A stretch of 64,000 nt of DNA. Origin: Acidaminococcus hominis (lineage in GTDB: Bacteria; Bacillota; Negativicutes; Acidaminococcales; Acidaminococcaceae). The DNA lies in NCBI RefSeq assembly GCF_900291475.1, contig NZ_OLMM01000005.1:245390-309389 (forward strand), read 5' to 3'. Position 1 is the first letter of the stretch, and each line of letters starts with the position of its first letter. Below are positions 15,312 through 19,447 of the stretch, piece by piece. The notes below the pieces were generated by a model that was not told the origin of the DNA, searched no databases, and worked only from the letters and a program-made list of their open reading frames with translations. A program made the translations under genes and the position numbers.

Positions 15312-15701
15312 TTAGTTGTTGCCCTGGGGCGGGAAGTCGTTCCGATGCTGGCTCTGGGGGGCCGGCTGGTGCGCTCTGTTGTGGGCTCTTTGGGGTGCTC
15401 TTTTGGGCGGCTTCCGGTTTCTCCATTCCGGATGATCCTTCTGGTCATCCCAGTGGGACAGGGGTGCCGGGTGGGAATCCCCCAGCACCACCACAATCTG
15501 GCTGAGGGGCTCTTTGTGCTCTGCGGCCTGGGCCTTGGGGGTGCCTAGCAGGAGATTGTAGCCGCAGACCAGAAGGGCGGCCAGCAGGGGCACGGTCAGC
15601 TGTTTTTTCAGCCGCTGCCAGGCTGTTTTATAGGGGCTGGGGCAGGCCAGAGCGGCCGTACCTACAGCGTTTTTTTGCAGGATCTGTTTTTGCAAAGTCA
15701 T
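15312..15701 (-). CDS. Small exported His/Pro-rich protein of the two-component regulon
   Basis: 129 residues from ATG 15701, which has GGGAGG 8 nt upstream. A charged N-terminal part is followed by LKKQLTVPLLAALLVCGYNL, a hydrophobic export/anchor segment ending before AQAAE. The exported part begins LSQIVVVLGDSH and contains DQKDHPEWRNRK, then a tail rich in His, Pro, Arg and Gln. It aligns with the neighbour at 15846 (SQ-IV-V-G, DQK-PE-R-K), so the two are paralogs. I recognise no known family. The His-rich tail could bind metal ions (inference). It has its own promoter with the 11-bp-phased repeat. Confidence 0.75.
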   Translation of the reverse strand: MTLQKQILQKNAVGTAALACPSPYKTAWQRLKKQLTVPLLAALLVCGYNLLLGTPKAQAAEHKEPLSQIVVVLGDSHPAPLSHWDDQKDHPEWRNRKPPKRAPQRAHNRAHQPAPQSQHRNDFPPQGNN

Positions 15702-15731
15702 GAGAAGGACCTCCCTTTTCTTGATGGTCTT

Positions 15732-15763
15732 AGTATAGGGCAGAAACATGAAAGAACTATGAA
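15732..15763 (-). promoter_or_regulatory. Promoter with 11-bp-phased direct repeat (gene 15312)
   Basis: On the plus strand: AGTATA (minus-strand -10 TATACT) at 15732-15737, six nt, AAACATGAA at 15744-15752, two nt, AACTATGAA at 15755-15763. The repeat period is 11 bp and the pair covers the -35 position. Confidence 0.75.
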
Positions 15764-15807
15764 AATCCTGGGCAGAAAATAAGCAAATGGGCAAAGTGGG
15801 GAAGACG

Positions 15808-15840
15808 CAAAAAAGGAAGTGCCGGGGCACTTCCTTTTTT
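15808..15840. terminator. Bidirectional terminator
   Basis: A-run, GGAAGTGCC, GG, GGCACTTCC, T-run. It ends the minus-strand gene at 15846 and separates it from the promoter at 15732. Confidence 0.85.
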
Positions 15841-15845
15841 GTATT

Positions 15846-16328
15846 TTATTTCCGATACGTTCCTTCAGGAGCGGGAGTCTGGCGGTTTTGGAGTTCCGGG
15901 CGCTGTTTCTGCTCTTTTTGCTGCTGTTTTTGTTCCTTGGTAAATTTCTTTTGCTGCTTTTGGTCTTTTTTCAGCTGCTTCTTTTCTTGCTTTTGTTCCT
16001 TTTGCTGCTCTTTGGTGTTTTCTTTCCGGTCTTTTTGGGAGGTCTTGTCTTCTCTTTGTTCAGGCTTGTTCTTTTGGTCTTTCAGGGAAGCCTGGGACTG
16101 GAGGCCATTTTCTCCTCTCACCAGAATGTACTGGGAGCGGTTTCCTGCTTCCGGGGCAGCGGCGTGGGCCACATTGCCAGCAGCGGCACTGCTGAAGCCG
16201 CAGACCAGGGCAGCCGCTACCAAGAACCGACCGGCACTTTTCTTTATTTCTTTCCAGCTGCTGCTCTCCATTCGGCTGAGCAGGGCCGTTTCTGTATAGG
16301 ATTTTTCACTTGCTTTTACTTGTGTCAT
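15846..16328 (-). CDS. Exported Lys/Gln-rich low-complexity protein of the two-component regulon
   Basis: 160 residues, with AGGGAGG upstream of ATG 16328. A cytoplasmic stretch of about 30 residues is followed by KKSAGRFLVAAALVCGFSSA, a hydrophobic segment with an AHAAA cleavage-like site near residue 57. The exported part starts RSQYILVRGENG and contains DQKNKPEQREDK, both alignable with the protein at 15312. The rest is an EQKQ/KKDQ-rich, highly charged and probably helical or disordered tail. No known family was recognised. Its promoter carries the same repeat box as its neighbours. The bias resembles envelope-spanning or polyanion-binding proteins, but function is unknown. Confidence 0.75.
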   Translation of the reverse strand: MTQVKASEKSYTETALLSRMESSSWKEIKKSAGRFLVAAALVCGFSSAAAGNVAHAAAPEAGNRSQYILVRGENGLQSQASLKDQKNKPEQREDKTSQKDRKENTKEQQKEQKQEKKQLKKDQKQQKKFTKEQKQQQKEQKQRPELQNRQTPAPEGTYRK

Positions 16329-16358
16329 AAAAATGACCTCCCTTGTTTTTCTGGCCCT

Positions 16359-16390
16359 ATTCTACCTGCGGATTATGAAAAGAACATGAA
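16359..16390 (-). promoter_or_regulatory. Promoter with 11-bp-phased direct repeat (gene 15846)
   Basis: On the plus strand: ATTCTA (minus-strand -10 TAGAAT) at 16359-16364, six nt, GATTATGAA at 16371-16379, two nt, GAACATGAA at 16382-16390. Spacing is identical to the sites at 15732, 17288 and 19416. Confidence 0.75.
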
Positions 16391-16419
16391 TGGAGCTTGA
16401 CAACTTTGTGTTTTTTGCG

Positions 16420-17232
16420 TTAGTGCAGCAGGTCCAGCAGCGGGTTGGTCTTGTGGACCTGAGCCCGGATTACCTGGCCGTTTTGGGCGTTGACGATGAA
16501 GTGGTAATCCATGCCATCCTTTTCGCAGTCCGCCAGGTAGAACAGGGGCATTCCTTTGAAGGTCCCTTGGGGTCTTACGCCGCTGGGCATGCCCGGCTGA
16601 GGGGCTGCAGGAGCCTTTGCGGCAGGGGAAGCCGTCTGGTTTTGGGCTTGGGCGTCTGTGCTTTCAGGAAGCTGCTGCTGCTCAGTATTCGGCACCGGTG
16701 CCTGGGGTTGGGTGCCCGGCGCTTTTTCCGGGGCTTTGGGGCCTTGGGGTGCTTTCCCGGCGAAGGGCTGGCCTTCCTGGGGTCCCCGCTGGAATTTTTC
16801 TCCCTGCTGCTTTTCCTTCTGGTCCCGTTTGTCGTGCTTACTGTCCTTGGCTTGCTTCTTGTCTTTTTGGAAGCGGCCGTCCGGGTTGGGCAGCTTGTCT
16901 TCCAGCTGGACGCTTCGGAAGGTAACGGAAGAAGGATCCGTCCCCAGGGTGTTGGCAACGGCTTCTTTTACCTGATCCGTGCTGACCAAGGTGATATTCT
17001 TTTGGGCGGCCAGGCTTTGCAATAGGGTGGTCCGGGCTTCCCCTTCCTGGAGCCGGGCGTTGGCCCGTGCCTTATGGGCGGCGATTTTGCCTGCCCCGCA
17101 CAGCACGGCCAGGGCCAGGACGCAGCCGGCACCTTTTTTCAGCCGGCGGGCAGTAAAGGTTTTTCTGCCCCAGGAAGCGGTTTTTTGCAGTACTTCTTTT
17201 GCTTGTTGTTCAGTTTTATTGGTGTCCATCAT
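16420..17232 (-). CDS. Exported PepSY-like protein with a large low-complexity insertion
   Basis: 270 residues, with GGGAGG before the start; the second ATG at 17229 is equally possible. A basic N-terminus leads into an export segment at about residues 33-50 (LKKGAGCVLALAVLCGAGK), similar to those of the two neighbouring exported proteins. Residues about 80-111 (VSTDQVKEAVANTLGTDPSS..TFRSVQLED) look like the helix and first strand of a PepSY domain. Residues about 223-262 (MPLFYLADCEKDGMDYHFIV then NAQNGQVIRAQ) look like its remaining strands. About 110 residues rich in Lys, Gln, Pro and Ala separate the halves. PepSY domains often inhibit or modulate exported proteases or sensors. It sits directly beside the kinase that probably controls it. 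Confidence 0.7.
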   Translation of the reverse strand: MMDTNKTEQQAKEVLQKTASWGRKTFTARRLKKGAGCVLALAVLCGAGKIAAHKARANARLQEGEARTTLLQSLAAQKNITLVSTDQVKEAVANTLGTDPSSVTFRSVQLEDKLPNPDGRFQKDKKQAKDSKHDKRDQKEKQQGEKFQRGPQEGQPFAGKAPQGPKAPEKAPGTQPQAPVPNTEQQQLPESTDAQAQNQTASPAAKAPAAPQPGMPSGVRPQGTFKGMPLFYLADCEKDGMDYHFIVNAQNGQVIRAQVHKTNPLLDLLH

Positions 17233-17287
17233 GGATTCCTCCCTTTGGGCAGTTCCTCAAGGGGTCTGCCTTTGTTGTATTGGCTAC

Positions 17288-17319
17288 AGTGTAGGGCCGG
17301 AACATGAAAGGGAAATGAA
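17288..17319 (-). promoter_or_regulatory. Promoter with 11-bp-phased direct repeat (gene 16420)
   Basis: On the plus strand: AGTGTA (minus-strand -10 TACACT) at 17288-17293, six nt, GAACATGAA at 17300-17308, two nt, GGAAATGAA at 17311-17319. Confidence 0.75.
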
Positions 17320-17332
17320 TGCCAATATTTTT

Positions 17333-18721
17333 TTAGAATTTCAGGGTAAACGTACTGCCCTTTCCCAGGGTACTGGTGACGCCGGCCTGGGCCTTTTGCA
17401 GTTTGGCGGCAGCTGCCACAAAGGACAGCCCCAGGCCCAGTCCCAGGTTCTGCTTCTTGTTCCGGGAGGGATCTGCCTGGTAGAGCCGGTTCCAGATCCG
17501 GGGCAGGTCTTCGGGGGGAATGCCCGGCCCGTCATCAGAAACGGCCAGCACCACCCGGCCCTTTTCCTGGCACAGGGAAACCTGGATGGTATGCTTGGCA
17601 AATTTCAGGGCGTTATCCAGGTAGTTGCCCAGAATCCGGGCAAGCAGCTGGTCGTTTCCGGTAACGGTAAGGTCCGGTTTTACCTGGAGCTTCCAGGCGA
17701 AGTTCTGGGCGGCCGGCAGCTTCTGGTAATCTTCCAGGGTTTCCGTGACCAGCTGGGACAGCTTGACCGGTCCCAGTACCAGGTCTTTCCGGCTGTCCAG
17801 CCGGGACAGCTCCAGCAGCTGGTTGATCAGGCGGCTCATGCGCCGGGACTGCTGAAAGATATGCTGAAATTCTTCCTTGGCCTCGGCCACGGTTTCCGTA
17901 TAGTCCTTGCCGTATTCACTTTCAGCCATGATGACGGCCGTGGGGGTGCGCAGCTCATGGGAGACATCGGAAGTAAAATGCTTTTCCCGTTCCAGCTGTT
18001 CTTCCAGTTGGGCCAGCATCCAGTTGAAGGTATGGCCCATCTGGTGGATTTCGTCCTTGCCGTCCCCCAGGGGAATCCGCTGGGACAGGTCCCCGGTTTC
18101 CCCAATGGCCCGGGCTGCTTCACTGATGGCCTGGACGGGGGCAAAGCTGTGCCGGATAATCCGGTAGCCGCCCAGGGCAATGAGAAGGAGAAACAGGGGC
18201 AGGCTGATGAGCGCCGTAAGCAGGATTACCTGGTAGCGCCGGGCGTAGATTTCATCGGGAAGAATGCCCCGGATCCAGGGCAGGGGCTGTGGGGAGAGGA
18301 CGGTTCCCGGCTGCCGGAGGGCAGGGCGGATGGGCTGATCCACGTAGTGGTAGCTTTGGCCGTCAATCACGATTTTCTGGGGCCCCCGGTTGAAACGGGG
18401 CGGCAGGGCGGGCATCCCTTCCGGTTCCATGCCGGAGAGCAGCTTTCCCTGGGGGTCCCGGAGGGACAGATAGACATTCTTGTCGTAGGGCCGGAAATGC
18501 TCCGGGTCCTGGGAGGCCTTATCCACGGCCTTGATCAGGTCCTTGCCGGCGTCCCGGCGCTCGTGGTCCTCGGCCATTTCCAGCACGGCCCCGGTAAAGA
18601 CGGCCAGCACCAGTGCCAGAAATAGGGTGTACCACAGGGTTACCCGGATGGAAACCGGGAGCTTGGTGAAAAAATGCACCAGTTTATGCCAAAGTAAGGA
18701 AAGCCTATTCTTTAAGGACAT
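17333..18721 (-). CDS. Membrane sensor histidine kinase
   Basis: 462 residues. Membrane helix 1 is about residues 25-47, the exported sensor domain about 48-162, helix 2 about 163-186 and HAMP about 187-240. The HisKA phospho-acceptor is His255 in DVSHELRTP. The C-terminal ATPase domain has the N-box (GNYLDNALKFA), DDGPGIP and GLGLGLSF. The start overlaps the regulator gene by 17 bp, so the pair is translationally coupled. The sensor domain matches nothing I recognise. Its neighbours are three exported proteins with the same promoter box, which suggests an envelope signal such as a cationic compound, a metal or misfolded protein (inference). Confidence 0.93.
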   Translation of the reverse strand: MSLKNRLSLLWHKLVHFFTKLPVSIRVTLWYTLFLALVLAVFTGAVLEMAEDHERRDAGKDLIKAVDKASQDPEHFRPYDKNVYLSLRDPQGKLLSGMEPEGMPALPPRFNRGPQKIVIDGQSYHYVDQPIRPALRQPGTVLSPQPLPWIRGILPDEIYARRYQVILLTALISLPLFLLLIALGGYRIIRHSFAPVQAISEAARAIGETGDLSQRIPLGDGKDEIHQMGHTFNWMLAQLEEQLEREKHFTSDVSHELRTPTAVIMAESEYGKDYTETVAEAKEEFQHIFQQSRRMSRLINQLLELSRLDSRKDLVLGPVKLSQLVTETLEDYQKLPAAQNFAWKLQVKPDLTVTGNDQLLARILGNYLDNALKFAKHTIQVSLCQEKGRVVLAVSDDGPGIPPEDLPRIWNRLYQADPSRNKKQNLGLGLGLSFVAAAAKLQKAQAGVTSTLGKGSTFTLKF

Positions 18722-19379
18722 AGCCGGTACCTCTCACGGTGTGGAGCAGCTTGGGCTCAAAATCCTTGTCGATTTTCTTCCGCAGGGTTTTGATGTACAC
18801 GTCCACCATATTGGAGGCCCCTTCGTAGGAAAAATCCCAGGCGTGCTCCAGAATCTGCTCCCGGGACAGGACTGTGCCCTGGTTCCGCAGCAGGTAGTCC
18901 AAAATGGCAAATTCCTTGGGGGTCAGGCTGATTTCGGTGCCGCCCCGGGTGACCTGGTGGGTCCGGGTGTCCAGTACCAGATCCGCCAAAACCAGCTGGG
19001 GGCTGGCGGTCTGCTGGGGGTTGCTCCGGCGCAGCAGGGAACGGATCCGGGCCAGCAGTTCTTCAAACTCGAAGGGTTTTACCAGGTAGTCGTCCCCGCC
19101 GCAGTCCAGCCCGGACACCTTGTCCTGGAGACTGTCCCGGGCGGTAAGAAACAGCACCGGCACCTGACTGCCCCGGCTGCGCAGGGTTTTGACCAGGGTC
19201 AGCCCGTCCATTTCCGGCATCATGATGTCCACAATCAAAAGGTCATAGTCGGCGGCGTCCAGGTAGGCCAGGGCCTCCTTGCCGTTAAAGGCGGAGTCTA
19301 CGGAGTAGGCTTCGATTTTCAGCCGTTTGGCGATTATTTTGTTCAGGGAAGGTTCGTCTTCCACAATGAGTATTTTCAT
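18705..19379 (-). CDS. OmpR/PhoB-family response regulator
   Basis: 224 residues. The receiver domain has acidic residues in VEDEP, phospho-acceptor Asp51 (LLIVDIMMP) and Lys101 (LVKPF). The C-terminal winged-helix output domain contains LTPKEFAILDYLL and VDVYIKTLRKKID. ATG 19379 is chosen because GGAGGTGG lies 7 nt upstream; a GTG three codons earlier sits inside that ribosome site. OmpR-type regulators bind tandem direct repeats of about one helical turn, exactly what is found upstream of this gene and of the three exported-protein genes, so it is probably their activator and its own. Confidence 0.94.
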   Translation of the reverse strand: MKILIVEDEPSLNKIIAKRLKIEAYSVDSAFNGKEALAYLDAADYDLLIVDIMMPEMDGLTLVKTLRSRGSQVPVLFLTARDSLQDKVSGLDCGGDDYLVKPFEFEELLARIRSLLRRSNPQQTASPQLVLADLVLDTRTHQVTRGGTEISLTPKEFAILDYLLRNQGTVLSREQILEHAWDFSYEGASNMVDVYIKTLRKKIDKDFEPKLLHTVRGTGYVLKE

Positions 19380-19415
19380 GCTTTCCACCTCCGGATACTT
19401 CTTTCCTTATTGTAC

Positions 19416-19447
19416 AGGATACTGCCAGAATGTGAAGCGAAAATGAA
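19416..19447 (-). promoter_or_regulatory. Autoregulatory promoter with 11-bp-phased direct repeat (two-component operon)
   Basis: On the plus strand: AGGATA (minus-strand -10 TATCCT) at 19416-19421, six nt, GAATGTGAA at 19428-19436, two nt, GAAAATGAA at 19439-19447. Same geometry as the three promoters of the exported-protein genes. Confidence 0.7.

Follow-up and report, generated by a model that had tools for sequence, protein, structure and literature searches.

Genes and promoters of the locus

This analysis concerns a two-component locus of Acidaminococcus hominis at positions 15312 to 19447 of the window, the window being the whole stretch of 64,000 nucleotides that was analyzed (contig NZ_OLMM01000005.1, positions 245,390 to 309,389 of the forward strand). 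A 249-aa protein nearly identical to PDB 1hux, of Acidaminococcus fermentans, pointed to this genus. The genes are transcribed from the minus strand in the order regulator, kinase, and then genes of 270, 160, and 129 codons. The regulator gene (18705..19379, minus strand) encodes an OmpR-family response regulator of 224 amino acids (aa) with the Pfam domains Response_reg (PF00072, E 1.1e-32) and Trans_reg_C (PF00486, E 8.8e-29); its ATG lies at 19379-19377, and the GTG at 19388 that was listed as the start lies 9 nucleotides (nt) upstream. The kinase gene (17333..18721, minus strand) encodes a membrane sensor histidine kinase in which Pfam recognized HAMP, HisKA, and HATPase_c. These domains supported an original prediction, made from the sequence alone, that an OmpR-type regulator and a kinase lie here beside exported-protein genes. 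The 270-aa product of the next gene (16420..17232, minus strand) is taken as a membrane-anchored PepSY-type protein on the basis of homologues and predicted fold. The last two genes encode low-complexity, probably exported proteins, namely a Lys/Gln/Glu-rich protein of 160 aa (15846..16328, minus strand), for which no Pfam family reached its cut-off, and a His/Arg/Pro-rich protein of 129 aa (15312..15701, minus strand; start ATG 15701), which matched no Pfam family and whose longer listed open reading frame crosses its own promoter. Export of the 270-, 160-, and 129-aa proteins was judged by eye from their N-termini. The N-termini of the 160- and 129-aa proteins were alike, with only 1 of 500 shuffles scoring as high; for the leaders of the 160- and 270-aa proteins the figure was 3 of 500, and for those of the 129- and 270-aa proteins 53 of 500.

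Four minus-strand promoters with tandem repeats had been predicted in this locus, and all of them were found. The promoter of the regulator-kinase operon (19416..19447, minus strand; TTCATTTTCGCTTCACATTCTGGCAGTATCCT) reads TTCAT-N6-TTCAC-N10-TATCCT. The promoters of the PepSY-type gene (17288..17319, minus strand; TTCATTTCCCTTTCATGTTCCGGCCCTACACT), the 160-aa protein gene (16359..16390, minus strand; TTCATGTTCTTTTCATAATCCGCAGGTAGAAT), and the 129-aa protein gene (15732..15763, minus strand; TTCATAGTTCTTTCATGTTTCTGCCCTATACT) fit TTCAT-N6-TTCAT-N10-TANNNT, hereafter the box, exactly; the regulator's own site departs from it by TTCAC in the second half. ATG starts with Shine-Dalgarno-like sequences lie about 30-56 nt downstream of the four boxes. 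The predicted period of 11 base pairs (bp) held in all four sites, as did the fixed spacing to the -10 element, since 10 nt from the pentamer is the same as 6 nt from the 9-mer that had been proposed. The claim that the twin repeat stands in place of a -35 element also agreed with the data, all four promoters carrying the pentamer pair there.

Geometry of the box

The repeat unit had been described as a 9-mer, which the alignment did not bear out; the conserved unit is the pentamer TTCAT (or TTCAY). Among the columns that the search pattern left free, just two in or beside the box reached 0.5 bit, one two bases before the upstream pentamer (0.68 bit) and one two bases after the downstream pentamer (0.50 bit). 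The full 9-mer as the conserved unit was supported by no column and was rejected.

With at most one mismatch, the window contained 4 matches to the box, in comparison with 0.05 expected, and 0 of 100 shuffles reached four. The genome (2.6 Mb) contained 4 exact matches, three of them within this locus. The original prediction had proposed a genome scan for the repeat and a comparison with relatives, and this comparison gave 51 exact matches in nine genomes of the genus, while a backward control gave none. The number of exact sites per genome was 3-11, and the relaxed TTCAY pattern gave 70 matches in the nine genomes against 3 in the control. The gap between the repeats was then varied across the nine genomes. 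A gap of N6 gave 51 matches, whereas N3, N4, N5, N7, N8, and N9 gave 2, 0, 1, 4, 1, and 1, respectively (backward control, 3 for all gaps together). Likewise, a distance of N10 to the -10 element gave 51 matches, whereas N7, N8, N9, N11, N12, and N13 gave 0, 1, 3, 11, 2, and 3 (backward control, 1). Because the counts collapse at other gaps and at other distances to the -10 element, we read the geometry of the box as being under selection.

A separate observation was that one identical 32-base stretch occurred ten times among the own-genome matches with up to two mismatches, on contigs C4, C7, C8, and C13 (for example C4:1362-1393, C7:177291-177322, and C7:750697-750728); it probably belongs to a repeated element, for instance an insertion sequence.

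Genes preceded by the box in the genus

The genes behind the box were examined at 69 of the 70 TTCAY sites, comprising the two-component loci and 48 further stretches; the site at G000:C4:168748 was left out (G, C, and L numbers are our handles for genomes, contigs, and loci, G000 being the present genome). At 61 of these 69 sites a frame of at least 60 codons, its start codon accompanied by a Shine-Dalgarno-like sequence, began within 250 nt, and 49 of the 69 precede gene families that recur in at least two of the nine genomes. Twelve families recur in this way, and their identities were taken from Pfam runs on single members. The most constant were an HlyD-type membrane fusion protein (macA), boxed in all nine genomes (eight exactly, that of this genome with one TTCAC), and the PepSY-type protein, boxed exactly in all nine. 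The regulator itself was boxed within 250 nt in seven of nine, and an esterase with an EstA-Ig domain in four. Three genomes each had boxed MscS-type channels, low-complexity basic exported proteins, and members of a family of exported proteins, one of which gave a weak beta-helix signal. Two genomes each had boxed OmpA-type, AsmA-like, and BD-FAE/S9 proteins, a 4Fe-4S membrane protein, and a transcription-factor-like protein. The 160- and 129-aa proteins of the window fell outside all of these recurrent clusters.

A box was found upstream of the regulator gene in all nine genomes of the genus, and in the same place in loci L066-L069; it lies about 650 nt upstream in G002, where the gene of a 154-aa, probably exported protein stands between box and regulator, and about 320 nt upstream in G006. 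In the present genome the box before the efflux operon (G000:C4:464236-464267; L121, L264), which has one TTCAC half, precedes genes of the macA-ATPase-MacB/FtsX order. In G000 and G003, the two genomes inspected, the fusion-protein gene was followed by those of an ABC ATPase and a permease, and Pfam recognized ABC_tran and MacB_PCD/FtsX in the G000 efflux genes. The fourth exact box of this genome (G000:C8:223715-223746; L122) lies 33 nt before the gene of a 479-aa exported protein. This protein belongs to the family in which one member gave the weak beta-helix signal and has relatives among the boxed proteins of G002 and G004; it had no Pfam match itself.

The original prediction had described the regulon as closed and self-contained, and this was refuted by the box before the first gene of a macA-type efflux operon in nine of nine genomes and, in the present genome, before the 479-aa exported-protein gene on yet another contig. 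By its predicted targets the regulon is open, because twelve families, the efflux operon included, recur behind the box, and envelope and export functions prevail among them.

Regulator and box in related genera

Next, relatives of the two proteins were examined. Orthologues of the pair were present in eight of eight congeners, in three sister genera (kinases 44-49% identical), and further out (33-40%). One kinase match, in L074 (G011:C58), carried one in-frame TAG and was left out of the kinase alignment. Relatives of the regulator were 55-89% identical in 16 related genomes, and regulator and kinase genes were adjacent in all 16 related loci examined.

The relatives outside the genus had boxes of the TTAAT-N6-TTTAAT type with the same geometry before the regulator gene, the PepSY gene, or both, as matches with one or two mismatches. 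The pattern TTTAAT-N5-TTTAAT-N10-TANNNT gave 13 matches in 16 genomes against 1 in the control, and none in the three genomes of the genus that were among the 16. Five of these boxes preceded PepSY genes (in G009, G026, G035, and, twice, G010), two the regulator gene (G011, G025), three genes of PAP2 phosphatases (G025, G026, G035; Pfam for the G035 and G025 proteins), and one a VTT/DedA-type gene (G009; Pfam); near the remaining two no gene was found. Conversely, the TTCAT pattern gave 5 matches in 13 genomes outside the genus against 1 in the control, and none of the five precedes a PepSY, regulator, PAP2, or VTT/DedA-type gene.

The recognition helix of the regulator was VYIKTLR or VYMKTLR in nine of nine TTCAT genomes, and in the eight other aligned genomes it was VYINSLR (three) or VYIRYLR (five). 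Box and recognition helix thus appear to change together between genera. The link between regulator and box is strong by inference, because the box is found at orthologous loci and because helix and box co-change. Autoregulation, as claimed in the original prediction, stood in so far as the box lies before the regulator operon across the genus and changes with the helix, the support being throughout indirect and positional. Autoregulation by the adjacent OmpR-type regulator through the box is, in this indirect sense, a well-supported prediction.

TTCAT boxes were also seen outside the family. In Streptococcus ratti (L185:2520-4038), a far relative of similar layout, an exact TTCAT-N6-TTCAT-N10-TATACT precedes a gene that contains two PepSY stretches; regulator and kinase genes come next, and the helix of the regulator is VLIKNIR. 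In a Lederbergia locus (L253:1367 and 5018), twin boxes of the TTCAT type precede the gene of an HtrA-like protease, which adjoins a regulator-kinase pair, and a gene that we take to be PrsA-like; this CssRS-like locus includes an exact TTCAT-N6-TTCAT box, and its helix is VHIKRLR.

The PepSY-type protein

We analyzed the 270-aa protein through its relatives and through a predicted structure. The homologue in L074 matched the second half of PF03413, over the C-terminal half, at 1.7e-6 (28.7 bits, cut-off 24). The homologue in L076 gave PF03413 at 0.052, those in L127, L140, L152, and L160 gave values between 0.00042 and 0.094, under the cut-off, and that in L068 gave nothing in the Pfam scan. 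Proteins of sister lineages encoded behind the same kind of box (L077, L080, L081) were clear PepSY proteins by Pfam. In the alignment, a conserved hydrophobic segment at the N-terminus was followed by a helix-strand part, then by a variable insert of low complexity (about 35 to 170 residues long as judged by eye), and finally by a three-strand part that was again conserved. The AlphaFold2 (AF2) model was confident in precisely these folded parts, with a predicted local distance difference test score (pLDDT) of about 94 in residues 81-110 and 231-260 and below 50 in most of 150-225, the mean being 67. Its best structural matches were CD1622 (Z 9.6), which we read as PepSY-type, YpeB (Z 8.9), and YpmB (Z 8.7). 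Since Z 7-8 can also occur with unrelated models, most of the weight lies on the sequences of the homologues. Homologues and model indicate that the 270-aa protein is a putative membrane-anchored PepSY protein, with a disordered insert dividing its domain. In this genome the exported PepSY-type gene lies within four genes of the kinase-regulator pair; in G001, G002, G004, and G006 it lies away from the two-component stretch (L152, L140, L127, and L160, respectively).

Comparison with known systems

The original prediction could not match the system to a named one. The type of module, a PepSY protein with a kinase and a regulator, has in fact been described for DbfQRS and BqsRS in a report (PMC12714742) that set out the mechanism in 2025 and presents such modules as widespread, Terrabacteria included. 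In the DbfQRS system of Vibrio cholerae, a small exported PepSY protein is likewise encoded beside kinase and regulator, DbfQ binds the sensory domain of the kinase and is inferred to favour its phosphatase state, and positive autoregulation is reported (PMC12714742). The PepSY gene there comes first in a single predicted operon, and its mature product is periplasmic (PMC12714742), whereas in the present locus the gene lies downstream of the kinase behind a boxed promoter of its own, and the product has a predicted N-terminal membrane helix and a domain split by a long disordered insert. The BqsRS system of Pseudomonas aeruginosa also has PepSY neighbours, PA2658 and PA2659 (PMC12714742). According to PMC4682146, BqsR is an activator whose operator consists of two pentamers 6 bp apart, and in one dissected promoter the most downstream pentamer overlaps the -35 element. 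The geometry here is that of BqsR, with two pentamers 6 bp apart and the downstream one at -35. The letters differ, the BqsR pentamer being TTAAG (PMC4682146) in comparison with TTCAT or TTCAY here and TTTAAT in the sister genera, and the present box has one preferred distance to the -10 element and few exact sites per genome.

The best NCBIfam row for the regulator was that of the heavy-metal regulators CzcR/SilR/CopR (TIGR01387, E 4.9e-74). Membership was rejected at 248.6 bits, the curated cut-off being 279.2, and no metal efflux genes were recognized in the locus. A likeness to HssRS-HrtAB and CssRS lies in a TTCAT-like direct repeat with an 11-bp period and in a MacB-type ABC pair, which is the target of HssR and a predicted target here. 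The direct repeat of Staphylococcus aureus HssR is GTTCATATT-N2-GTTCATATT, with TTCAT at the same 11-bp period. The HssR target HrtAB is a MacB-type ABC pair, and in the CssRS layout an HtrA-like gene precedes regulator and kinase genes. These systems are not known to have a PepSY member, and no hrtAB or htrA gene adjoins the present locus. In the available parts of papers on HssR (PMC3968170, PMC6305404) and on CssR/CutR (PMC6057675, PMC12802291), no repeat letters for HssR and no TTCAT-type repeat for CssR were found. A search of the open-licence literature, by title and start of abstract, found no description of the present regulon. The kind of module and the pentamer-N6-pentamer geometry of the operator are already known from the cited sources; new here are this member of the module, its operator, the genus-wide list of targets, and the split, anchored PepSY protein.

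Proposed function and alternative explanations

We consider it likely that the locus is an autoregulated PepSY-type two-component module governing an open envelope-response regulon. In the proposed mechanism, the kinase would sense envelope damage, or a hydrophobic or cationic toxicant, and would phosphorylate the OmpR-type regulator. The two pentamers, one helical turn apart, would be bound head to tail by a regulator dimer; acting as a class II activator, the dimer would stand in for the -35 element and recruit RNA polymerase. Under its control would be the regulator-kinase operon itself, the PepSY partner, the efflux pump, and further exported proteins. On the model of DbfQ, the anchored PepSY protein may contact the outer domain of the kinase and lower its activity, giving negative feedback; the effectors would be the efflux pump together with the exported proteins of low complexity. 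Because of the gene content, our best guess for the signal is membrane damage or a substrate of the pump.

Several observations weigh against this interpretation. Genomic position and co-change are the only ties between regulator and box, and within the family both helix and box changed on a single branch. The exact TTTAAT box was absent in G020 and G057, which have kinase relatives; both had near-matches only, and the box before the G020 regulator was half TTAAT and half TTCAT. Flavonifractor (L189) has a TTCAT-N6-TTCAT box near a two-component system whose helix is YMSRLR, and in Eubacterium callanderi (L228) the Lys of the helix is present and no box of the scanned form was found; a strict rule that a Lys helix means TTCAT was dropped because of L189. 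Twenty of the 69 sites lie outside the recurrent families, and four (L119, L131, L135, L161) look coding or have no convincing start nearby. In the present genome, matches with at most two mismatches numbered 77 against 42 in the backward control, a modest excess, so that near-exact matches alone are informative there. The 270-aa protein itself had no Pfam match at E 0.1, for which reason its PepSY assignment rests on homologues and fold; among the eight split relatives scanned, one scored above the curated cut-off, five below it, and two gave nothing, and Foldseek found no match to the model below E 0.001 (best, 0.29).

The box before the first gene of the efflux operon in all nine genomes would also fit a system that works like HssRS-HrtAB or CssRS, in which a sensor of a heme-like toxicant or of secretion stress has MacB-type efflux as its main output and the PepSY protein is an effector, not a feedback partner. 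The TTCAT at an 11-bp period and the MacB-type target of HssR speak for this, as does the Lederbergia locus, which combines the HtrA-like gene before regulator and kinase, the layout of CssRS, with an exact TTCAT-N6-TTCAT. We regard this as unlikely, since a box precedes the PepSY-type gene just as regularly as macA, in nine of nine genomes, and since in the sister genera the commonest boxed gene is PepSY (5 of 13 exact matches), with no macA among them. Still less probable is that the box belongs to another OmpR-type regulator encoded elsewhere, with the present two-component system as one of its targets. Operators of this geometry are common in the OmpR family, and this genome has seven kinase-like matches, the present kinase included. 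Nevertheless, the box lies at the regulator operon itself in the genus and changes with the helix of this regulator between genera, and TTTAAT boxes numbered 12 in the eight non-genus genomes with a kinase orthologue and 1 in the five without, orthologue status in these 13 genomes being judged from match scores.

Finally, the four sites of the window might be a product of chance or of low-complexity promoter DNA copied within the locus, and the similar N-termini of the 160- and 129-aa proteins are of the kind expected if promoter and leader had been duplicated together. The probability of this is negligible, and the comparative data refuted it: 0 of 100 shuffles reached four sites, the nine genomes gave 51 matches against 0 at one preferred spacing, and the same genes are boxed although the letters of the spacer differ.

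Returning to the autoregulated PepSY-type module, we tentatively suggest, as a scenario that is itself rather doubtful, that in a PepSY two-component regulon of diderm Firmicutes the operator changed throughout the genus from TTTAAT-N5-TTTAAT to TTCAT-N6-TTCAT, and with it one residue of the recognition helix (Asn or Arg to Lys), the geometry staying fixed; the PepSY partner would have become membrane-anchored and split by disorder, and in one subclade a new structured small RNA, its loops rich in C, would also have come under the regulator. For the Negativicutes, a gut lineage that has an outer membrane and has been little studied, the locus offers a testable envelope-stress regulon whose operator is precise, whose efflux target is conserved, and which includes a candidate for feedback. 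TTTAAT and TTCAT in sister genera would form a compact natural case of co-change of operator and regulator. The split, anchored PepSY proteins would extend the module described in 2025 (PMC12714742).

Candidate structured RNA behind the box

In G001, G002, G004, and G006, the first box upstream of the regulator gene was followed by a conserved stretch without a common open frame (L072:3542-3667; L070:5069-5198; L071:7605-7733, minus strand; L073:4191-4318). Rfam gave no match at the gathering score in the window, in L070-L073, or in L009, and a permissive Rfam search of the RNA region of L072 gave two rows, both far under their gathering scores. A search of 61 genomes with an RNA model and strict filters found one copy in each of these four congeners, none in the remaining five of the genus, the present genome included, and one marginal match elsewhere (E 0.099). 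The stretch is predicted to form three main hairpins, whose loops are rich in CUCC and hardly vary. In 14 of 29 pairs both bases had changed in one or more of the four sequences, a number reached by 0 of 500 shuffles and in comparison with 0-3 in slid controls, the structure having been predicted on the same alignment as was tested, so that the test leans towards it; the level of further pair types was reached by 20 of 500 shuffles. The stretch is probably a small RNA or a leader under this regulator.

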